A DNA stretch of 32,004 nt from a virus, in the IMG/VR virus record IMGVR_UViG_3300009130_000088, positions 1 to 32,004 of that record. One strand, given 5' to 3'. Below are positions 4,942 through 28,507 of this stretch, one piece after another (within the stretch, counting starts at the first letter, position 1; each line of letters opens with the position of its first letter). The notes beneath the pieces were generated by a model. The model ran no database searches. It saw nothing but the letters and a program-made list of their open reading frames with translations, and had not been told where the DNA came from. The translations under genes were made by a program, and so were the position numbers.

Positions 4942-4960
4942 AAGATAAATAAAATAAAAT
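4942..4960 (+). promoter_or_regulatory. Late-promoter-like motif
   Basis: AAGATAAATAAAATAAAAT ends 1 base before the ATG at 4962. This is the GATAAATAAAATAAAA variant, also seen before 31198 and on the minus strand at 12869-12888. Confidence 0.6.
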
Positions 4961-7109: not shown

Positions 7110-8135
7110 ATGGAAGCTAAAATTGCAATCACTTCAGTACTAGCAAACTTAACTTATAACGATAAAAACCACAGAGGTTTAGAGGCAATGTTCTTTAAAA
7201 AGATGATGGAAGATCGTGGAGGAGAAGTTCAAGTTGTAGGTAAAAAGAATAGAAATACTAAAGATTTAGATTTTTATATTGACTATACTGAGACTGATTT
7301 TTCAGAATTTGATGTAGTAGTAATTCAATTAAGTACTCCTAACTTCTTTGGAGGACAGATGGGAGAACATTGCGAGAAAATCTGTAATGATTTAGCTAAA
7401 TTCAAAGGTAAGATCTTCATGTTAGTTAATGATCCAAGAATACCTCCTTTAAATTATGCAGAGATCATTTCAAAAAGATTTGATTTATGTACAGAATCAG
7501 TAGATGCATGGAATGATATTATTGAGAATGCGACTTACTTATTCTCAGGATCTAAGATTGAAAAATTCTTAGGATGGGAGCCAAAGAATTGGAAACATGT
7601 TGACTGGTTCACTTATATCTTTAAGCATAGATTTACATCAGACTCTAAGTTTGACATCTATAGTGAAGCCCAGGATATTGAAAAAGAATGGGATTTAGTT
7701 TACTTTGGAGATAAAAGAGGATCCTTTAGAGAGAAGCAACTTAGAAAATATTTTCCAGAAGATACAAATAACCTTAAAATCGGATATAAATCTGATAAAG
7801 TACCAGGAACCTTTATTAAGAAACTTAAACATGACGAGCTAATGGCAACGTTAGATAAAGTTAAAGTTTCATTCATTACTGGAGATGAGGAACATTTAGA
7901 TAACGTTACTACTTATAGATTCTATGAGACGTTAGCATCTAATTGTTTAGCCGCTATTCAAATAGAATACGATCCAGAAAAGAAATTAATTCAAGATCCA
8001 GTATTAAGAGATCTTTTATATGTTGAATCTCAAGAGGATATTAAGAAGCTTATAGCTGCATATTCTCCCGATTTAATCAATAGGCAAAAGGCAGAGCTTA
8101 GAAGATTATTTAAGCTTGATAAAGTTACTGCATAA
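7110..8135 (+). CDS. Glycosyltransferase-like protein (GT-B type, possible DNA or surface modification)
   Basis: A 341-residue cytosolic protein. The N-terminal half has alternating strands and helices (FDVVVIQLSTPNFFGG, GKIFMLVNDPRIPP). The C-terminal half includes DLVYFGDKRGSFREKQL and, near residues 265-284, VTTYRFYETLASNC. A Tyr/Arg-x-x-E-x-L-x-x-x-C run there resembles the sugar-nucleotide-binding end of GT-B glycosyltransferases. Length is close to T4 alpha- and beta-glucosyltransferases (351-400 residues), so glucosylation of modified phage DNA is one possibility, but no hydroxymethylase gene is visible here and no catalytic residue can be assigned with confidence. Confidence 0.5.
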   Translation: MEAKIAITSVLANLTYNDKNHRGLEAMFFKKMMEDRGGEVQVVGKKNRNTKDLDFYIDYTETDFSEFDVVVIQLSTPNFFGGQMGEHCEKICNDLAKFKGKIFMLVNDPRIPPLNYAEIISKRFDLCTESVDAWNDIIENATYLFSGSKIEKFLGWEPKNWKHVDWFTYIFKHRFTSDSKFDIYSEAQDIEKEWDLVYFGDKRGSFREKQLRKYFPEDTNNLKIGYKSDKVPGTFIKKLKHDELMATLDKVKVSFITGDEEHLDNVTTYRFYETLASNCLAAIQIEYDPEKKLIQDPVLRDLLYVESQEDIKKLIAAYSPDLINRQKAELRRLFKLDKVTA

Positions 8136-8486: not shown

Positions 8487-8504
8487 CAAATAAATAATAA
8501 AAAA
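8487..8504 (+). promoter_or_regulatory. Late-promoter-like motif
   Basis: CAAATAAATAATAAAAAA lies 9 bases upstream of the ATG at 8514. Confidence 0.6.
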
Positions 8505-10294: not shown

Positions 10295-11767
10295 TTATTT
10301 CTTAATCTTATTGTAGATGTTATTTACTTGAGGTTCGTTACCTAAGAATCCTTTAACATATATTGAAATAAGATCTGTAACATCGCTATCAATAGATCCG
10401 AAGTAACTAGATTCATATTGTAAATCATCTAACATTGTATTATCATCTGTCGATAATTTAGCATATTCATCATTTAATTTCTTAATGTTACCTGGGCTCA
10501 AACTAGTTACAATAAGAGCCATTGATAATTCATCTCCCATTGTAGTAACTCCATCAGATAGATCATGCATTCTTTGAGCTAAGCTTGACATTTCCTCTCC
10601 TCTAATAGTATCCATAAAAGCTTCAGGATCTGCTGTTACTGTGCTATACCATCCCATGATTTCTGCAAAGTTTTCAGTGTTAGATGTACCGTTAACTTCT
10701 GCTAATTTTTTACCTGCTAAGCCAGCTAGAGCTAAATTAGGCTCTACTCCAGCTGATGTTAATATTTTATTAGCAAGTTTAGGATTTACTTCTGAAACAA
10801 ATTCACCGAAATTCTTTCTAATAGGAAGAGGATTAACCTTTCCGGATTTATCTACTAAGTTTCCAACGATTCCTTTATCGTTTATCTCTTTAATTACGTA
10901 CTTTTGAGATTTTCCAGCGTTTACGCCTTTTTTAGTTACACTAGAAACAGTATCTCCTACTTTCACGTTACTCTTAATAGCACTTAATTTCTTAGCTTTG
11001 TTAAGGCTCTTGAATCCAGGTAATCTCGATACCATTCCTTTAATACCTTTAGTTAAAGGTTTAGCTCCTTTCGCAGTTGCTTTTGCTATATTCTTACTTG
11101 CAGTACCTATAGTCTTTGCTCCTTTAAATATATGCCCTGCTCCAAGAGTTCCAATGCTTAATCCGATATCAGCAATGATATTTTCAATATCAATACCTCT
11201 CATTACACTTTCTTCAATCTCTCTTCTATAAATACTTAAAGCAACAACTTCAGCGTTTCCACTAAAATCTCCTTCAAGTGCATCTGTTAAAGTTTCTCCG
11301 TATTTACTAGTGTAGGCGTCTGCTAATTTATCAAAATATTCTGATCCGTCTAATCCATCTTCGTAAGATAGTTTAGATATAGCAGTTCCAACTGCAGCAA
11401 CTAACTCTTCGTCAGTTCCTATTCCAGATATTGCCTTATGTACAAAATAAGAAGCAGTATTGAAGTCAATATTAGAAGATGTTTTCTCTATATTCTTAAT
11501 ACTTGCTGTTACTTTAGGATCATCTTTATCAGTCTTATCGACTTCAATTTGTAGAATATCTCCTTCTTGTATAAACTTATTATCCTTCTTAGTCATTTCA
11601 GTATTATCAGAGTCTCCGTCTTTAGTTGAATTAACTAAGTCAGTTACTGCCTTTCTAATTTCGTCAACTTCTAAGTATTGAACTAATCTAGCGTCTAGAT
11701 CGTCTGATATTGTTCCTTGTTCTACTAAATAACTTCCGTAATTTTCGTATATTTTTCCAATATTCAT
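10295..11767 (-). CDS. Annexin-like-repeat protein with capsid-targeting-like N-terminus
   Basis: A 490-residue protein. Residues 7-16 (YENYGSYLVE) fit the N-terminal motif shared by several genes here. Residues ~101-180 look like one annexin-type repeat: A.YFVHKAISGIGTDEELV, then an acidic loop, YGETLTDALEGDFSG and ALSIY. This matches the annexin signature of G-x-GTDE followed about 40-50 residues later by L..D.SG. A hydrophobic segment (194-213), a basic linker and a small beta domain (VKVGDTVSSVTKK) follow. It is the second gene of a minus-strand pair, 6 bases after its partner. Calcium or membrane binding is inferred only from the repeat. Confidence 0.6.
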   Translation of the reverse strand: MNIGKIYENYGSYLVEQGTISDDLDARLVQYLEVDEIRKAVTDLVNSTKDGDSDNTEMTKKDNKFIQEGDILQIEVDKTDKDDPKVTASIKNIEKTSSNIDFNTASYFVHKAISGIGTDEELVAAVGTAISKLSYEDGLDGSEYFDKLADAYTSKYGETLTDALEGDFSGNAEVVALSIYRREIEESVMRGIDIENIIADIGLSIGTLGAGHIFKGAKTIGTASKNIAKATAKGAKPLTKGIKGMVSRLPGFKSLNKAKKLSAIKSNVKVGDTVSSVTKKGVNAGKSQKYVIKEINDKGIVGNLVDKSGKVNPLPIRKNFGEFVSEVNPKLANKILTSAGVEPNLALAGLAGKKLAEVNGTSNTENFAEIMGWYSTVTADPEAFMDTIRGEEMSSLAQRMHDLSDGVTTMGDELSMALIVTSLSPGNIKKLNDEYAKLSTDDNTMLDDLQYESSYFGSIDSDVTDLISIYVKGFLGNEPQVNNIYNKIKK

Positions 11768-11773
11768 AATATA

Positions 11774-12871
11774 TTAAGCTTTATTTTTCATAGATCTTTT
11801 AGCTGCACTAGCTCCTGCGTCTAATGCTTCTTGATATTCATCAGTATTAGCATCTTTCTCTTTTCCTGATTTAGAATTAGCAATTGCTCCTTCATAATCT
11901 CCAAAGATCAATTCACCTTTTCGGTTAAATAAGATAGCTTTAACTGTTTCAATAGTGTATTTACCATCAGTAGATGCAGCTTTATCTTTGTTAAGATATT
12001 CAGTTCTATATGCCTCGTCGTTAAACATCTTTAATAAAAACGCTTTATCATTAGAGTTAACTATTTCTATGTCCATAGATAAGTCGTTCTTATCAGTAGA
12101 CTTATTATCTTGTTTCTTATTTTCAGAATACCACATAATAGACTCTCCTTCTAAAGAAATAGAACCTGCAGATGCTCCGCTATCTTCAGGCTCCGCTTTA
12201 ATTGCTCCTTTATCGTCAAACGTCATTTTATAAGTAACTCCGTTTGTTCTCATAGTGTATCTGAAAGACTGACCTTTTAAGCTAGAAGTCTTAGAAGTAC
12301 CTTTAGCTTCTTCTTCAGTATTAAGTTCTGATTCTGGAGTATTAGCTCCTGCTGCTTCTTGTTTATTAGATGATGCAGCTGCTTCTAATTTAGAATCTAA
12401 GTTAATTCCTTTAGTCGCTTTCTTAGCGTTTTCTAATTCAGTTGTAGAAACCATTGTAACTTTAGGATCGAATCCCATTTTCTTAAGGTCTTCTACTTTT
12501 CTTTCAACTACTGTAAATGCGGTAGTAACAACTTTAGATCTTTCTCTTTTAATTGTATATACTAACATCTTAGTTGCAAAGAATCCTTTATCTAATTTAC
12601 CGATGTGTCCAATAAATCCAGCAGCACCGTTAAGGTCTGTTAAAACTATATTAGCTCCTCTATCTGTAAGTTTATGATCTTGTACAAAAATTGCCTCTGC
12701 GTTGTCGTGCTTAATTGTATACTTAAATTCTGTTTTAGATTTAACTTTATACTTTAATACTGCCCAACCTCCATCGATTTGCATCTTCTCTTTTCCTATA
12801 GCAAGATAATTATTGAATAATCCCTCGTTTAAGGAATCCCATGAATCAAATGATCTAGTCATATCAGTCAT
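11774..12871 (-). CDS. Hypothetical protein with capsid-targeting-like N-terminus
   Basis: A 365-residue protein that begins MTDMTRSFDSWDSLNEG, with the shared [FY]xx[W]..LxE motif at residues 8-16. The body has beta-type repeats (FRYTMRTNGVTYKMTFDDK, SISLEGESIMWYSE) separated by low-complexity Ala/Glu/Ser/Thr linkers (about 165-200 and at the C-terminus). No membrane helix. It is first in a minus-strand operon with the annexin-like gene and starts right after a minus-strand late-promoter-like motif. No family recognised. If the leader is cleaved after Glu16, about 349 residues remain. Confidence 0.65.
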   Translation of the reverse strand: MTDMTRSFDSWDSLNEGLFNNYLAIGKEKMQIDGGWAVLKYKVKSKTEFKYTIKHDNAEAIFVQDHKLTDRGANIVLTDLNGAAGFIGHIGKLDKGFFATKMLVYTIKRERSKVVTTAFTVVERKVEDLKKMGFDPKVTMVSTTELENAKKATKGINLDSKLEAAASSNKQEAAGANTPESELNTEEEAKGTSKTSSLKGQSFRYTMRTNGVTYKMTFDDKGAIKAEPEDSGASAGSISLEGESIMWYSENKKQDNKSTDKNDLSMDIEIVNSNDKAFLLKMFNDEAYRTEYLNKDKAASTDGKYTIETVKAILFNRKGELIFGDYEGAIANSKSGKEKDANTDEYQEALDAGASAAKRSMKNKA

Positions 12872-12888
12872 TTTATTTTATTTATCTT
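12869..12888 (-). promoter_or_regulatory. Late-promoter-like motif, minus strand
   Basis: Read on the minus strand, AAGATAAATAAAATAAAATG runs directly into the start codon of the 12871 gene. It is back to back with the plus-strand copy at 12889-12906. Confidence 0.6.
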
Positions 12889-12906
12889 AAAATAAATAAT
12901 AAAAAT
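12889..12906 (+). promoter_or_regulatory. Late-promoter-like motif, divergent partner
   Basis: AAAATAAATAATAAAAAT lies 12 bases before the GTG at 12919 and forms a divergent pair with the minus-strand motif. Confidence 0.6.
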
Positions 12907-15468: not shown

Positions 15469-15969
15469 ATGAACGAAGAATTAGAAACTCAAGAAACTAC
15501 TGCAACAGTAGAAGCTCAAGATGCTCAAGATACTACTGCATCTCAATCTAAGCCAGAACTAAAGACTCTAGAAGAAGTTAGACAGGCAAGACTAGGTAAA
15601 TTCTCTGTTGGCTTAACTGCAGCTGACGCTAAGTTCTTTAGAAATGTCTTAAACAAGGCTGAGTATAAAGGAAGTAATGAAGCATATTTATTAATTATGG
15701 CACATGCTGAATTGTCAGCAACTTCTCAATATTTAGATGAAGTAGTAAATCAGGACAAGTCTAAGAAAGAATCTAGACATAATGTTGAACTTACTTCCGC
15801 TACTATTGAAGCTCTTAACTATTTCTTAGAAAGAAAGCACGGAGCAGGAGCAGAATCAGCAAGAAGATTATTTACTTCAACTATGGTTCTTAGACCAGTT
15901 CTTAATGAGCTACAGGCATTAGATCAAAAAATGCAGGAATTTCAAAAAAAGGAAGAAGAGGCTAAATAA
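15469..15969 (+). CDS. Hypothetical acidic helical protein
   Basis: A 166-residue protein. Residues 1-35 are a disordered Glu/Thr/Gln/Ala segment (ELETQETTATVEAQDAQDTT). Residues 36-150 form a helical domain (ARLGKFSVGLTAADAKFFRN, LTSATIEALNYFLERKHGAG), and the last 15 residues are a charged helix. No membrane segment or cysteine. Its stop overlaps the late-promoter-like motif that serves the acidic core-like gene. No family recognised. Confidence 0.65.
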   Translation: MNEELETQETTATVEAQDAQDTTASQSKPELKTLEEVRQARLGKFSVGLTAADAKFFRNVLNKAEYKGSNEAYLLIMAHAELSATSQYLDEVVNQDKSKKESRHNVELTSATIEALNYFLERKHGAGAESARRLFTSTMVLRPVLNELQALDQKMQEFQKKEEEAK

Positions 15970-15980
15970 ATAATAAAAAA
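15963..15980 (+). promoter_or_regulatory. Late-promoter-like motif
   Basis: TAAATAAATAATAAAAAA overlaps the preceding stop codon and lies about 30 bases before the next start (16010 or Met2 at 16016). Confidence 0.6.
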
Positions 15981-19198: not shown

Positions 19199-19217
19199 TT
19201 AATAAATAATAAAAAAG
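19199..19217 (+). promoter_or_regulatory. Late-promoter-like motif
   Basis: TTAATAAATAATAAAAAAG lies 8 bases before the ATG at 19226. Confidence 0.6.
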
Positions 19218-19225
19218 TTAGAATT

Positions 19226-20404
19226 ATGCAAGTACTTGGCTTTAATGAATTCAACAAATCTAACGATAGGCTATTAGAAATGGCTAGTGAACTTACTAAG
19301 TTAGGAGTTCCAAAAGATTTAATGAAGTTTATTCATAAATTATCAGGAGAATATCAAGGATTAAGAGATTACGGAGGTGATGTAAATCCTAGAACTGGTA
19401 AAAAAGATATTAAATTCCACACAAGAAAAGAACCAACTAGAGCGAAACTAGGACCATGGCCAGCAAGAGAAGACGTTCCAATGGCACATGATGTTGCGGT
19501 TCAAGGAGTTAAAAAAGGTAAAAATCAAATATACCATTACTTAACTAAGATTGTAGATAGCAAGAGAGATACTCCTGTTAGATTAGTATTAGTTAATCCA
19601 CATTTAGACCAAACTCACTACATTACTCTTAAAACTGGTAAAATGAGCCAGCAAGAATTAGAGGACATGGGATTACCTAGAGGAGAAGAAGGTAGACGAA
19701 TGGCAAGAGAAAGAGGTATTTCTCAGAAGTTAGGTTTATATGTTAGAACTGTTACTATCGATAATGACTCAGGATTACCTGTAGCAGGATGGGAAGGTAC
19801 TATCGGTCAAATGGCTGAAGATTTAAGCGATGAGTCTGTTTTATATATCATGGAAACAGAAGATAGAGTAAGATCTAAGAGAAAAACTAGAAAGACTCAA
19901 AAAGAAGTTACTCAAGATCAATTCATCAATTATTTCGTAGAGAACTATACTAAAATTTTAGATACTCAAGGAGCTGCTAATGCTGAGAAGATGAATCAGA
20001 AATTAATTCAAAAATTATCTGGATTATCCGCTGAAGATATTACTAACGTTCTTAGACCAAGTTACCGTGAAGGTGAAGTTGAAGTAACTAGAACGTCAGG
20101 AGCCTCTGCTGAAAAATTTAGAGAGATAATCGACCTTAAGAAAGCTATGGAAGATTCTTTAGTTAGTGAAGGTAATATCCAATCTAAATTATGGAGATTC
20201 TTAGAATTAGCATTTAAAGAAGGAGAATATGAAGCTGATGATAAAGATAGAAATAAAGCATCGTTAACTGACATGGTTGCAAAACACACAATGCCAATCG
20301 TTGCTTCTATGTTTCTACAGTTCGTAGCATTAGGAAAGGTTTACAAGAAATTCTTTACTGATGATCCATTCAAAGAATTAGGATTAGAAGATTTATTAAT
20401 CTAA
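19226..20404 (+). CDS. Hypothetical protein with capsid-targeting-like N-terminus
   Basis: A 392-residue protein. Residues 6-18 (FNEFNKSNDRLLE) fit the shared leader motif, with a possible cut after Leu-Leu-Glu18. The body has a compact alpha/beta first half (RDTPVRLVLVNPHLDQTHYI, LGLYVRTVTIDNDSG, SVLYIMETEDRV), a basic linker (RSKRKTRKTQKE) and a helical second half ending in a hydrophobic patch (IVASMFLQFVALGKVYKKFF). The His/Tyr-rich first part (about 80-130) has no recognisable enzyme motif. It has its own promoter motif and terminator. Confidence 0.65.
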   Translation: MQVLGFNEFNKSNDRLLEMASELTKLGVPKDLMKFIHKLSGEYQGLRDYGGDVNPRTGKKDIKFHTRKEPTRAKLGPWPAREDVPMAHDVAVQGVKKGKNQIYHYLTKIVDSKRDTPVRLVLVNPHLDQTHYITLKTGKMSQQELEDMGLPRGEEGRRMARERGISQKLGLYVRTVTIDNDSGLPVAGWEGTIGQMAEDLSDESVLYIMETEDRVRSKRKTRKTQKEVTQDQFINYFVENYTKILDTQGAANAEKMNQKLIQKLSGLSAEDITNVLRPSYREGEVEVTRTSGASAEKFREIIDLKKAMEDSLVSEGNIQSKLWRFLELAFKEGEYEADDKDRNKASLTDMVAKHTMPIVASMFLQFVALGKVYKKFFTDDPFKELGLEDLLI

Positions 20405-20459: not shown

Positions 20460-20765
20460 TTAGTACTCAGAAGGTTCTTCCTTCTTTTCTTCTGGCTTCT
20501 TTTTAAGCTTATCAATAACGTCTATAAATTTACCTCCAAATGTATATCCTGCAAATAGCATGACAACATATTGAAGAGCGTCTACGATCATCTTAAAATT
20601 ATCCATTTCTAATCCATCACGATAGCTAGGTTTTAAACCTGCAAACGTAAGTATTCCTAAGGTTAAGTAATAAACTGTAATAGAAACTAACATGTAGACT
20701 CTACTTTGTGAATATTTACCTTTCTCCTTAAGAATGTCCTTTAACATCGTACTGTTAAATTTCAT
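20460..20765 (-). CDS. Two-helix membrane protein, candidate holin
   Basis: A 101-residue protein with two predicted membrane helices: about 25-43 (MLVSITVYYLTLGILTFAG) and about 63-80 (LQYVVMLFAGYTFGGKF). A charged N-terminus precedes them, with a Lys/Glu-rich cytoplasmic tail (KKKPEEKKEEPSEY). Size, two helices and a charged C-terminus fit class II holins and related phage membrane proteins, which would pair with the endolysins in this region. It carries a minus-strand late-type motif. Holin function is inference. Confidence 0.55.
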   Translation of the reverse strand: MKFNSTMLKDILKEKGKYSQSRVYMLVSITVYYLTLGILTFAGLKPSYRDGLEMDNFKMIVDALQYVVMLFAGYTFGGKFIDVIDKLKKKPEEKKEEPSEY

Positions 20766-20774
20766 AGCTCAAGA

Positions 20775-20793
20775 TTTTTTATTATTTATTTTG
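20775..20793 (-). promoter_or_regulatory. Late-promoter-like motif, minus strand
   Basis: The minus strand reads CAAAATAAATAATAAAAAA, ending 9 bases before the start at 20765. It is divergent with the copy at 20793-20812. Confidence 0.6.
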
Positions 20794-20812
20794 GGATAAA
20801 TAATATTATAAA
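20793..20812 (+). promoter_or_regulatory. Late-promoter-like motif, plus strand
   Basis: GGGATAAATAATATTATAAA lies 13 bases before the ATG at 20826, making a divergent pair with the minus-strand motif. Confidence 0.5.
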
Positions 20813-21083: not shown

Positions 21084-21658
21084 TGTACCCAATAAATCAT
21101 ATATCAATGTTTCCTTTTATACTAGTACTTTTAGTTTTATCTAGCATTACCTTATTTTCTAAGAATAGTGGTAAATACACTATTAGAAAAAGAATGAATT
21201 ATTCTGGAATATGGATACTAAAATTCTTCTTAGTTAAACAAAAGCCTTTCCATGCTAGAATTAAACTTGATAAATCATTTGAAGTTAAGACTGAAGGTGT
21301 TCAAAAGATATTTGGAATAGGAAACTTAAATCATCATAAGAATTCAGATCGATATGGTCTTATATATGACGGCGACGGCAAGTTTGGAATATATTCATAT
21401 CAATATAGAAACGGATCAAGATCTCAATGGTACAGGTTAGGAACTGTTAGAACTGATGAGACTTTCTATATTAGATTTGATAATTATATTGTAAGTAGAT
21501 ACAAAATAGGAAGATATTTATATCCTTATTTTGAACAAGATGGAGACGATGAATTAGGTGCTCCACATAATATGACTATGTCAATATACTTCAACGAAGA
21601 CTTTGAAGAACTGAAGCAGAATTTACATCTGCAACAGTTCAATCTATTAAATCTTTAA
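21083..21658 (+). CDS. Membrane-anchored beta-rich protein
   Basis: A 191-residue protein with an N-terminal membrane helix (about 8-26, SMFPFILVLLVLSSITLFS) and a soluble domain of strands (GIGNLNHHKNSDRYGLIYDG, SQWYRLGTVRTDETFYIRF) that looks like a compact beta-sandwich with conserved-looking aromatic and Gly residues. It is coupled to the preceding membrane gene. Its stop overlaps the convergent sigma-factor gene by 4 bases with no terminator between. Function unknown. Confidence 0.65.
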   Translation: MYPINHISMFPFILVLLVLSSITLFSKNSGKYTIRKRMNYSGIWILKFFLVKQKPFHARIKLDKSFEVKTEGVQKIFGIGNLNHHKNSDRYGLIYDGDGKFGIYSYQYRNGSRSQWYRLGTVRTDETFYIRFDNYIVSRYKIGRYLYPYFEQDGDDELGAPHNMTMSIYFNEDFEELKQNLHLQQFNLLNL

Positions 21659-22557
21659 TCGAAAGTAATTTCTTTAATATGGGGGCTCTTTTTTGTAATC
21701 TGCCATTTTAATCTTCTAAGAGCCTTTCTAGTCCATAGTCTAGCAGCTTCTCTAGTAACTTCATATTTGATACCTATTTCTTCTAAAGTCATAGGTCGAT
21801 TTCCGTCTAATCCAAATCTTACGATTATGACTTCTCTTTCTCTAATAGGTAAAGTATTCACGACATCTAATATTAACTGTCTAGCCGTCTCATTCATTAG
21901 GGCTTTATCTGGTGACTCAGTTCCGCTATCTAGTATATCTATCAGACCTACTTTCTCTGAATCACCTGAGAATAAGCTAGCAGTCCCTGCGTTAGTTTGT
22001 TCAAGAGTTCCTATAGAAATATTCATTTTTTCTAAGTTCTCTTTATTATGTATAGTATCGTCATTAATATACTCCTCCTTTATTTCATCTAACGAAGGAT
22101 TTCTTTCAAGAACTTGAGATAACTGCTGTTCTATCTTATCTAAATCTCTTAATAGTTTAGACTTATTCATCGGAATTCTAATAGACTTAGATTTGTCAGT
22201 AATAAACTTTAAAATGTTCTTTCTAACATACCATACTGCAAAAGAAATAAACTTAAATCCGTAATCTGTTCTAAAAAGAGAAGCAGCCTCAATTAAGCCA
22301 ATATTAGCTTCATTAATTAAATCCGCTATATAAAGTCCTCCTTTATTATACGTCTTAGCAACACTAATTGCGAATCTTAAGTTAGCTTTAACTAACTGGT
22401 GTTGTGCTTCAACATCTCCTTTTTCGGCCCTCTTAGCTATTTCCAACTCTTCATCAGGAGTTAGCATTTTAATTCTGCTTACTTCTGTTAAATACTTATC
22501 AATACCAACTTCTTTAGAATTGATTAAGTTCTCTCCAGTTAATACTAAATTCTTCAT
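21655..22557 (-). CDS. Phage RNA polymerase sigma factor, sigma70 family
   Basis: A 300-residue sigma factor. Region 1.2 starts near KYLTEVSRIKMLTPDEELEI (21-40). Region 2 spans ~50-130, with LVKANLRFAISVAKTY, DLINEANIGLIEAA, and FKFISFAVWYVRKNILKFI, the core-binding and -10-recognition helices. Region 4 (~236-290) has LPIREREVIIVRFGLDGNRP and a helix-turn-helix TLEEIGIKYEVTREAARLW. It looks like a short version of Bacteroidota primary sigma factors. It would direct host RNA polymerase to phage promoters, plausibly the late-type motif found across this window. That pairing is inference. It is convergent with 21083-21658. Confidence 0.9.
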   Translation of the reverse strand: MKNLVLTGENLINSKEVGIDKYLTEVSRIKMLTPDEELEIAKRAEKGDVEAQHQLVKANLRFAISVAKTYNKGGLYIADLINEANIGLIEAASLFRTDYGFKFISFAVWYVRKNILKFITDKSKSIRIPMNKSKLLRDLDKIEQQLSQVLERNPSLDEIKEEYINDDTIHNKENLEKMNISIGTLEQTNAGTASLFSGDSEKVGLIDILDSGTESPDKALMNETARQLILDVVNTLPIREREVIIVRFGLDGNRPMTLEEIGIKYEVTREAARLWTRKALRRLKWQITKKSPHIKEITFD

Positions 22558-22564
22558 AATACTA

Positions 22565-22580
22565 AGTTATATTATATCAA
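22565..22580 (-). promoter_or_regulatory. Candidate GTATAATA-type promoter for the sigma gene
   Basis: The minus strand reads TTGATATAATATAACT, about 7 bases before the sigma start. It closely matches the core at 26308-26321 (TGAGTATAATATAAC). A second AT-rich element (TTGTATATAATAATTTC) lies further upstream. No late-type motif precedes sigma. Confidence 0.35.
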
Positions 22581-22610
22581 TAATACTATATTAAGAAATT
22601 ATTATATACA

Positions 22611-22654: not shown

Positions 22655-23740
22655 TTATCTTATTATTCTAATAGTTCTAGATCCAACTCTTACGAATAAT
22701 ACTCCTTTAGACGTCAAAGTAATAAGCTGAGGTCCTTTAGGAACTGTCGTATTTAATATGGATCTTCCACTTAAATCAAAAACGTTTATTTCTTGAGAGG
22801 TTTTTGAATTAATTAATAATCTATCTCCTATTATTCTAATATCAGCGTCAGCTTCTCCTAAAGATATTACTCTATGATAGTTAACAGTTCCATCAAAGTC
22901 TACTTGTTTTAATCTGGCGTATTTATAATCCGTCATTAAACTATGAACAGAATATTTCTTTTGTTCTAAAGTATTTCCAAATCCTGCTATAACTATTGCA
23001 GATTCCCAGGTTATTCCATCGTTAGAAACCATTACTTCAAAATAATGATTATTTATTTCAGCTGCAGTTGACCAATAATACTTTATATATTCACCTTCTC
23101 TAATTGCATCAAAGTAAAGAAGCTCAACTGGAAGAGGTGCTGGAGTATAACAATTAGTTCCATAGTTACTGCTAGTGAAGTAAGGATCCATATTAGCATC
23201 AGTTACTCCATTTAGAGACGCACTTTCTGTTAAATCATTAATCCAAGATCCATTTTTACAAAATTCTCCCGTACTTACCAGAGCCATATTATTATCGAAT
23301 GATCCATTAAGTACAATAGACCCATCATTAGTTAAGCTAGATATCGAGTTAGCACCTGTTCCGTGAAATATTGCAGATCCGTTATATCCCCATATTCCTC
23401 CACTCTGTACTTCTAATATCATTCCTGTTGGAACAGTTCCTGTTTGATAAGCGACTCCTCCACTTCTAACTACCACTTTAGCAGGATTATCTGTCGACAG
23501 GGCAACTATATAATTGCCATATGCTAAATACGCAGGGTTAGTTAAGGGATACCATATTGGATTTGCCCAATTATGTGAAATAGTCACAGTATCGGTACTA
23601 GTTGGAGTACAGCTACAATCAGCTCCTCCATCAGTAGTTGACCATGTTCTAACAGTACTTCTAGAGTAAAGATGCTGTTGAGCATGTGATACACTAAAAA
23701 GAAAAGTAGCTAGTATCGCTATTAAAATATTCTTCATCAT
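22655..23740 (-). CDS. Secreted protein with type IX secretion C-terminal sorting domain
   Basis: A 361-residue protein. Residues 1-20 (MMKNILIAILATFLFSVSHA) are a clear signal peptide. Residues ~25-195 are Ser/Thr/Gly-rich beta strands of beta-helix style (DGSIVLNGSF). From residue 202 comes PLPVELLYFDA, WSTAAEINNHYFEV, WESAIVIAGFGNT and YARLKQVDFDG, the module that precedes T9SS type A sorting domains in Bacteroidota. The last ~60 residues (RLLINSKTSQEINVFDLSG, GVLFVRVGSRTIRIIR) are such a sorting domain. The product should cross the host outer membrane by T9SS and be displayed or released. A late-type motif drives it. It may be a lysogenic-style 'moron', a superinfection factor or a surface modifier. 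Confidence 0.85.
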   Translation of the reverse strand: MMKNILIAILATFLFSVSHAQQHLYSRSTVRTWSTTDGGADCSCTPTSTDTVTISHNWANPIWYPLTNPAYLAYGNYIVALSTDNPAKVVVRSGGVAYQTGTVPTGMILEVQSGGIWGYNGSAIFHGTGANSISSLTNDGSIVLNGSFDNNMALVSTGEFCKNGSWINDLTESASLNGVTDANMDPYFTSSNYGTNCYTPAPLPVELLYFDAIREGEYIKYYWSTAAEINNHYFEVMVSNDGITWESAIVIAGFGNTLEQKKYSVHSLMTDYKYARLKQVDFDGTVNYHRVISLGEADADIRIIGDRLLINSKTSQEINVFDLSGRSILNTTVPKGPQLITLTSKGVLFVRVGSRTIRIIR

Positions 23741-23750
23741 TAAGATTTTT

Positions 23751-23770
23751 TCTATATACTTTATTTATCT
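23751..23770 (-). promoter_or_regulatory. Late-promoter-like motif, minus strand
   Basis: The minus strand reads AGATAAATAAAGTATATAGA, ending 10 bases before the start at 23740. Confidence 0.5.
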
Positions 23771-23823: not shown

Positions 23824-24165
23824 ATGTACTACATTTTAGGATTTTTAATATACTCAGCTGCTCAGTTTTTAGTATGGATCCAGAGCTACGGTCCTCTAAA
23901 AATAGAGTTCATTAAAAATAATCCTTGGATTCCTTATGCAATATCGATCCCTATAACACACTTATTTATAGTTGCAACTAGATTAATTGTAAGTAATTCA
24001 GACGGACTAACCTGGGAATCAAGGTTCATTCAGTTTGCCGCAGGAATCATTACATTTGCTATAATGTCGGGTTATTACAATAGCGAGTCTATTAATTTAA
24101 AAACAGGAATTAGCATATTATTAGTTGGGATAGTTGTAGCAATACAAATATTTTGGAAAAACTAA
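23824..24165 (+). CDS. Four-helix membrane protein
   Basis: A 113-residue protein starting at ATG 23824 (a TTG one codon earlier is less likely). Four hydrophobic segments: YILGFLIYSAAQFLVWI, WIPYAISIPITHLFIVATRLI, FIQFAAGIITFAIMSGYY and ISILLVGIVVAIQIFW, with short polar loops. A small integral membrane protein without known catalytic motifs. It stands just upstream of the SleB hydrolase, which has its own promoter. It might assist lysis or superinfection exclusion; no family recognised. Confidence 0.65.
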   Translation: MYYILGFLIYSAAQFLVWIQSYGPLKIEFIKNNPWIPYAISIPITHLFIVATRLIVSNSDGLTWESRFIQFAAGIITFAIMSGYYNSESINLKTGISILLVGIVVAIQIFWKN

Positions 24166-24179
24166 TAAATAATTAAAAG
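24162..24179 (+). promoter_or_regulatory. Late-promoter-like motif
   Basis: CTAATAAATAATTAAAAG lies 9 bases before the ATG at 24189 and overlaps the previous stop. Confidence 0.55.
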
Positions 24180-24188
24180 TGTTTCACA

Positions 24189-24650
24189 ATGATTAAGGAT
24201 TACTCTAATTGGTTAGTTGAAAATAAAGCATATCTTCCAAATGTTAGTAGCGACGAAATTATAGCAGCAACTATTGTAGGAGAAGCAGGAGGAGAATCTA
24301 AAAACGGAATGATCGCTATCAAAAACGTATTAGATAACAGAGCTAAAAAGAAAGGAAGCAGTGCAGCAGGAGAAGCTATTAGACCTAAACAATTTTCAAT
24401 GTGGAATTCTGCAACTAAAGGAGTTAGTGTTAGATCTGACTTTGATCCTACCAAATTACAATCAGTTATAGATTCTTATAAAACTCATAAGAAATGGAAT
24501 GAAGCTCTTCAAATAGCAAAAGCAAGCCATTCAGATTTAACTAAAGGGGCTAATATGTATTACGCTCATAATAAGATTAAACCTCCATACTGGACTAAAG
24601 GATGGAAGCAAACAACGGTAATTGGAAATCACACTTTCGGAATAAAGTAA
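24189..24650 (+). CDS. SleB-type cell-wall hydrolase
   Basis: A 153-residue enzyme of the Hydrolase_2 (SleB) type: IIAATIVGEAGGES with candidate catalytic Glu32, IAIKNVLDNRAKK, RPKQFSMWN, the late HSDLTKGANMYYAHN and VIGNHTFGIK near the end. These enzymes cleave the peptidoglycan glycan strand. No signal peptide. The N-terminus MIKDYSNWLVEN carries the shared leader motif (Tyr5-x-x-Trp8-Leu9-x-Glu11). It is the second peptidoglycan hydrolase in this window, unlike the GH19 enzyme in fold; the two may act at different stages (entry and exit). Confidence 0.85.
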   Translation: MIKDYSNWLVENKAYLPNVSSDEIIAATIVGEAGGESKNGMIAIKNVLDNRAKKKGSSAAGEAIRPKQFSMWNSATKGVSVRSDFDPTKLQSVIDSYKTHKKWNEALQIAKASHSDLTKGANMYYAHNKIKPPYWTKGWKQTTVIGNHTFGIK

Positions 24651-26533: not shown

Positions 26534-26553
26534 CAAATAAATAAAATAAAAAG
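26534..26553 (+). promoter_or_regulatory. Late-promoter-like motif for homing endonuclease
   Basis: CAAATAAATAAAATAAAAAG lies 6 bases before the ATG at 26560. Confidence 0.55.
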
Positions 26554-27429: not shown

Positions 27430-27445
27430 CATAAATAAAAATAAA
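27430..27445 (+). promoter_or_regulatory. Late-promoter-like motif for homing endonuclease
   Basis: CATAAATAAAAATAAA abuts the ATG at 27446. Confidence 0.5.
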
Positions 27446-28490: not shown

Positions 28491-28507
28491 TGTTGATAAA
28501 TAATAAT
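28491..28507 (+). promoter_or_regulatory. Late-promoter-like motif for homing endonuclease
   Basis: TGTTGATAAATAATAAT immediately precedes ATG 28508. This sets the start, since an upstream TTG at 28481 would place the promoter inside the gene. Confidence 0.55.

Follow-up and report, generated by a model that had tools for sequence, protein, structure and literature searches.

The sigma factor gene and its surroundings

The window is a viral contig of 32,004 bases (IMGVR_UViG_3300009130_000088) from a large uncultured T4-like phage lineage whose hosts are probably Bacteroidota. Genes were called mechanically; three spurious ORFs were removed and ORF 16010 was added before counting. The window carries 10 tRNA genes and encodes a T4-type DNA ligase and, at 7110–8135 (+), a relative of the T4 beta-glucosyltransferase (PF09198) that is 77% identical to its counterpart in the related record G009, and for which a role in DNA hypermodification is possible.

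At 21655–22557 (−) lies the gene for a 300-aa RpoD-like sigma factor, here termed S1. The initial annotation described a primary-type sigma factor with clear regions 2 and 4, and profile searches agree, adding region 1.2. On the (−) strand, Pfam places region 1.2 at residues 19–49 (22411–22503; 1.8e-10), region 2 at residues 55–123 (22189–22395; 9.2e-12) and region 4 at residues 234–284 (21706–21858; 1.9e-10). Residues 20–286 match SigA/RpoD chains, and the only PHROG matches are 351 ('RNA polymerase sigma factor', 5.6e-42) and 21612. With regions 1.2, 2 and 4 all present, S1 belongs to the RpoD-like sigma-70 family; it falls outside the T4 gp55 family, being 300 aa rather than short, and no PHROG 234 match was found anywhere in the window. 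Its best matches in the genome collection are Bacteroidota primary sigma factors (40–42% identity), with Ignavibacteriota close behind. In a tree built without the near-copies G039 and G041, it clusters with five sigma factors of related phages (support 87/95), separate from host sigma factors. The other S1 sigma factors are 32–36% identical to that of the window. All six have lysine in place of the host glutamine at position 437 (as numbered in E. coli) and a replacement of W434 (W434Y and Q437K in region 2 of the window protein). The region 4 recognition helix varies among S1 sigma factors, with 40% identity in the −35 recognition helix compared with 97% among the type B sigma factors of a sister lineage (see below) and 100% among hosts. 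A middle-class-like box, TATAGTATTAT, precedes the S1 gene at 22580–22590 (−).

The protein adjoining the sigma gene, encoded at 22655–23740 (−), has a signal-like N-terminal stretch and partial relatives in G003, G010, G011 and G020. Pfam and PHROG searches returned no match to it, and its C-terminus is reminiscent of type IX secretion sorting domains. Elsewhere, the protein encoded at 10295–11767 (−) has a marginal Pfam annexin match (3.6e-6, residues 148–178) and relatives in G009 and L077.

A T4-late-like box before window genes

The motif ATAAATAA, a form of the T4 TATAAATA box relaxed at its first base, occurs at 20 sites in the window when both strands are counted. If a site counts as placed when a start on its own strand follows within 60 nt, 16 of the 20 are placed, 13 on the (+) strand and three on the (−) strand, at distances of 12–44 nt, where about one would be expected; all 16 carry the ATAAATAA core, a close variant of the T4-type 8-bp box. 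Shifting the sites against the genes gave a mean of 1.05 and reached 16 in 5 of 5000 random shifts, a set that included shifts near zero. When the 40 upstream regions were shuffled with dinucleotides preserved, the mean was 1.1 and the maximum 6, against the observed 16. The initial annotation had counted about 16 motif copies on both strands just before starts, and its count, strandedness and placement are all borne out.

For several of these sites, referred to as class L boxes, placement is joined by conservation in orthologs: 4945–4952 (+; 17 nt before start 4962), 8490–8497 (+; 24 nt before 8514), 12878–12885 (−; 14 nt before the start of 11774–12871), 12892–12899 (+; back to back with the preceding box and 27 nt before 12919), 15966–15973 (+; 44 nt before ORF 16010), 19202–19209 (+; 24 nt before 19226) and 20782–20789 (−; 24 nt before the start of 20460–20765). 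The remainder are assigned by placement: 847–854 (+; 26 nt before 873), 20796–20803 (+; 30 nt before 20826), 23761–23768 (−; 28 nt before the start of 22655–23740), 24165–24172 (+; 24 nt before a cell wall hydrolase start at 24189), 26537–26544 (+; 23 nt before the HNH-type ORF 26560), 27431–27438 (+; 15 nt before the endonuclease-like ORF 27446), 28496–28503 (+; 12 nt before the HNH ORF 28508), 30087–30094 (+; 23 nt before the HNH-type ORF 30110) and 31173–31180 (+; 25 nt before the homing endonuclease ORF 31198). Between 26014 and 31953, the 10 tRNA genes are interspersed with the five endonuclease-like ORFs just listed, each of which is preceded by its own class L box.

Exact copies of AAATAAATAATAAAA number five in the 32-kb window, compared with one in seven phage records related through the ligase, which total 1.19 Mb. 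With up to three mismatches, 28 copies are found across the whole window against 24.8 expected; this lack of enrichment is explained by the low complexity of the motif, and it is therefore placement that carries the signal. A scan with a 15-mer plus ATG pattern returned at least 118 stretches, with one match per stretch among those listed, and these were judged to be mostly chance. The −7 element of Bacteroidota primary promoters, TAnnTTTG, is present in 0 of 24 upstream regions of the window and in 2 of 46 in G009.

Conservation and promoter classes in related phages

The ligase search brought up large phage records, and the glucosyltransferase search retrieved a closer clade, represented by 19 loci. 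With the window sigma factor and the protein encoded at 19226–20404 as queries, no close relatives were found. G001 is identical to the window across 17.5 kb and G009 is collinear with it, the records compared being mostly fragments. In the orthologous upstream regions of relatives, ATAAATA occurs in 61 of 62 cases for boxed window genes versus 18 of 141 for other genes, a contrast whose formal p-value is inflated by kinship among the records, although many of the compared proteins are only 25–55% identical. The three spurious window ORFs were left out of this comparison and ORF 16010 was included.

Promoter classes were derived from 440 upstream regions in 14 records, with near-identical sites removed before sequence logos were drawn. 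Class L, ATAAATAAtAaAAA, comprises 147 sites at a median of 27 nt from the start. These clade sites share no conserved −35 element (columns −35 to −2 carry at most 0.2 bits, or 0.6 for the base adjacent to the box) and are A-rich directly after the box, the two features of a T4-type promoter. Class M, GTATAATa, comprises 36 sites, with AA[ACT]CTT upstream in 20 of them versus 11 of the 147 class L sites. Class E is bipartite, ATTTT...TATATTTAC, and its 19 sites include clusters confined to one region in G040 and likewise in G047. PHROG scans covered 50 of 57 class L and 34 of 36 class E proteins, most families having one or two members. Class L proteins (G040, G047) match tail sheath, fibre, collar and HNH families, and class E proteins match sigma factor, DnaB/primase and UvsX families. 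The class L box in relatives thus precedes tail and homing-endonuclease genes, alongside early and middle promoter classes. The T4-late-like candidate regulon of the initial annotation stands on these grounds, as a single box without −35 that is conserved at orthologous positions and precedes structural genes in relatives; the gp55 role that it suggested for the full-length sigma factor is not supported.

Sigma factors and a gp55-like protein in the clade

Besides S1, the clade encodes S2 (225–253 aa, in the class E region) and S3 (ECF-like, about 210 aa). G040 (loci L458–L464) has five sigma-like genes, namely S1, two S2, S3 and one encoding a gp55-like protein of 136 aa that matches PHROG 234 at 6.6e-18. 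The gp55-like protein is conserved in the lineage at 132–137 aa, with 60–79% identity among the five compared. A scan found 32 gp55-like loci, and in most of the loci examined the gene lies a few kb upstream of the same structural-side neighbour gene. One of these loci belongs to record 3300026097_000011, from the same sample as G047 (3300026097_000012), which by its map position may be another part of the G047 genome. PHROG 234 finds no gp55 in the 32-kb window, the gene being encoded in relatives outside the region seen here; no other clade fragment examined spans the gp55 locus of G040, so absence from those fragments is meaningless. Across 85 gp55-positive loci, in which several records are repeated, ATAAATA is present in 186 of the 714 upstream regions, compared with 17 for the reversed motif. 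The clade gp55-like proteins are without the C-terminal clamp-binding end of T4 gp55, and the T4-type clamp (PF02916) was found in none of 13 records, mostly fragments.

S3 is present in most records of the window clade and is highly conserved, its region 4 helix strictly so, and ahead of its operon stands a class M promoter that is itself conserved and includes a −35-like element. Its ETLNHIFDL-like C-terminus is nearly invariant (11/11; for instance L465:12879–13517, +) and looks, in its letters, like the clamp-binding end of T4 gp55; hhalign finds no relation between S3 and gp55. An iterated ECF profile widened to all sigma factors and was used as a list only. In three large records, G061, G066 and G068 (217–253 kb), the sigma frames are of 204–246 aa and none is of about 300 aa. 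Among the upstream regions of their examined loci, 2 of 5, 6 of 21 and 2 of 6, respectively, contain ATAAATA.

The cultured Flavobacterium phage MaF61 has a complete genome with a gp55-like ORF (ORF75; 2.1e-16) whose match to PHROG 234 is weak (0.029). In this genome, there is no RpoD-like match below E 0.1, no ECF match below 0.02 and no S3 match. The genome has 74 ATAAATA sites, of which 19 lie just before starts, against a mean of 2.5 and a maximum of 10 under the null. With genes listed as late-type or other by annotation and homology, the box is found no more than 80 nt ahead of 8 of the 14 late-type genes and of none of the 8 other named genes. Divergent gene pairs of MaF61 share the palindromic GATAAATATTTATC, one box read on both strands (L616:9691–11273, L617:6442–9832).

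Candidate readers of the class L box

The 16 window sites are probably T4-type late promoters, with a short gp55-like sigma factor as their most likely reader. Each promoter would consist of one A/T box without −35 and would melt the A/T-rich DNA just downstream. The gp55-like sigma factor would dock on the host core RNA polymerase in the manner of sigma region 2 and recognize the box. S1 would be a second phage sigma factor, related to the Bacteroidota primary sigma factor and serving earlier promoters, which is more likely because a middle-class-like box precedes its gene. From what is seen in silico (the boxes, their conservation, the gene classes and the gp55-like protein in relatives), we infer the late timing, the start sites, the pairing of sigma factor and box, and a gp55 in the window phage itself. 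Preference for a gp55-like reader over the full sigma70-like protein of the initial annotation rests on several points: the lineage keeps a gp55-like protein, the box occurs in MaF61 with no RpoD-like or ECF sigma factor detected and in G061, G066 and G068 without an RpoD-like frame of about 300 aa, and T4 architecture and the jumbo phage CBB (see below) provide precedents. Other features count against it, namely a window without gp55, clade proteins without the clamp-binding end, the lack of a PF02916 match in 13 records, the weak PHROG 234 match in MaF61 and changes in S1 of the kind expected of a −35-independent sigma factor. As for a phage-coded polymerase reading the box, PF00623 is absent from the 17 records searched; PF00940 has no match in 11 records, which is uninformative because the control matched nowhere either.

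S1, favoured by its region 4, and S3, favoured by its C-terminal motif, both rank lower as readers in view of the gp55-like protein and MaF61. S1 could read the late boxes itself if its changed region 2.4 recognized ATAAATAA and its region 4 had lost −35 reading. The substitutions at 437 and 434 in all six proteins point this way, a class L without −35 fits the degenerate −35 helix, and the middle-like boxes before the S1 gene suggest that S1 is made before the late genes. Such a role nevertheless seems unlikely, given that the box is found in MaF61 with no RpoD-like sigma factor detected and in G061, G066 and G068 with no frame of about 300 aa, and that the box is invariant, yet S1 has diverged far more than the gp55-like protein. 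Reading by S3 is likewise improbable: its conservation across most of the clade and the letters of its C-terminus would suit a late role, whereas its strictly conserved region 4 helix is at odds with boxes that have no −35, the promoter before its operon suggests class M as its target, and both MaF61 and hhalign speak against it. It is very improbable that the motif is no promoter but a translation-initiation or A-rich leader signal. Adenines at −3 and −12/−13 favour initiation in Flavobacterium (PMC6847099), and the distance from box to start is fairly constant around its median; however, the window distances spread from 12 to 44 nt, the box marks only some genes and the same ones across orthologs, boxes stand back to back between divergent genes, and two further motif classes mark other gene sets.

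A sister lineage with a different late-type box

In a sister lineage (G003, G005, G006, G011, G014, G020 and G022), TAnnTTTG promoters occur together with a late-type box, ATATTTAT, for which no −33 element was seen; the second promoter class of this lineage is ATATTTATnnnAAAA. Counts of TAnnTTTG upstream of genes range from 9 to 90 in individual sister-type records (G003 to G012, with G009 and G019 as exceptions). The RpoD-like sigma factors of the lineage are of type A, type B or both. A search of the lineage for gp55 gave only two weak matches to PHROG 234, both in G006, and none to the clade gp55 profile; a 123-base terminal repeat in G006 would fit a complete genome. G010 and G011, which are 99.97% identical over 20.7 kb, combine the sister box with type B and ECF sigma factors and have no type A sigma factor, a combination that appears to count against the gp55 reading. 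In Cellulophaga phage phi4:1, ATATTTAT is present in 0 of 68 upstream regions and no region-2 sigma match was found. An RpoD-like (Bacteroidota-derived) or ECF-like phage sigma factor might have taken over the gp55 job in the sister lineage, its late-type promoters becoming ATATTTATnnnAAAA without −33, in which case the window S1 would be a relative beside a still-working gp55; this scenario is tentative and somewhat doubtful.

Relation to known late transcription systems

In silico, the late regulon holds up as real, and it belongs to a known kind. T4 late promoters have one 8-bp TATA box with A/T-rich DNA downstream and no −35, and A at −13 occurs at some sites (PMC2988020). The clade resembles T4 in its single 8-bp box, A/T-rich downstream DNA, lack of −35, use of both strands and gp55-like protein in relatives. 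It differs in that the position at which T4 prefers T is usually A, G or T in the clade box, the gp55-like protein is shorter and without the clamp-binding end, a T4-type clamp was not detected in 13 records, and the relatives also carry RpoD-like and ECF-like sigma factors. Jumbo phage vB_PcaM_CBB has late ATAAATA at 35 sites and both sigma70-like and gp55-like proteins, with gp33 and gp45 not detected (PMC5259590). In CBB and GAP32, three promoter classes are predicted: the early class is RpoD-like, the middle class has a −35 of its own (TGAAACG), and the late class, found before structural genes, has ATAAATA followed by A/T (PMC5259590). Three promoter classes, the late ATAAATA box and the pairing of sigma70-like with gp55-like proteins are shared with the clade; unlike these phages of enterobacterial hosts, the clade has several more sigma factors per genome, and its RpoD-like one is similar to the Bacteroidota primary sigma factor. 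Phage promoters with a single box and no −35 are also found in phiEco32, where the phage sigma factor gp36 reads them, and among the late promoters of Kayvirus, where reading is ascribed to a phage sigma factor (PMC8948821, PMC7698491), but these boxes are tAATGTAtA and TGTTATATTA, respectively, and the hosts differ. Among titles and abstract openings of the open-licence literature, none was seen to link a promoter class to a sigma factor in such Bacteroidota phages.

If the gp55 reading is right, T4-type late transcription, with a short gp55-like sigma factor and a lone ATAAATA, reaches large phages of Bacteroidota, a group with primary promoters unlike the E. coli ones. The analysis yields a sequence-predicted map of three promoter classes, with the predicted late class present in a cultured phage, MaF61. 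It also illustrates that a promoter motif need not belong to the sigma gene found in the same window.

The same reading would have a gp55-type late system coexist with host-derived RpoD-like and ECF-like phage sigma factors. Phages with both RpoD-like and minimal sigma factors are already described: Group 2 jumbo phages (Iyer et al.), including Lak and Tenacibaculum phages, have both types, although the available part of that account ties no promoter motif to either (PMC7824862). Both the window sigma factor and the gp55-like protein have matches in the uncultured phage LR756500, and the gp55-like protein also has matches in Lak phages.
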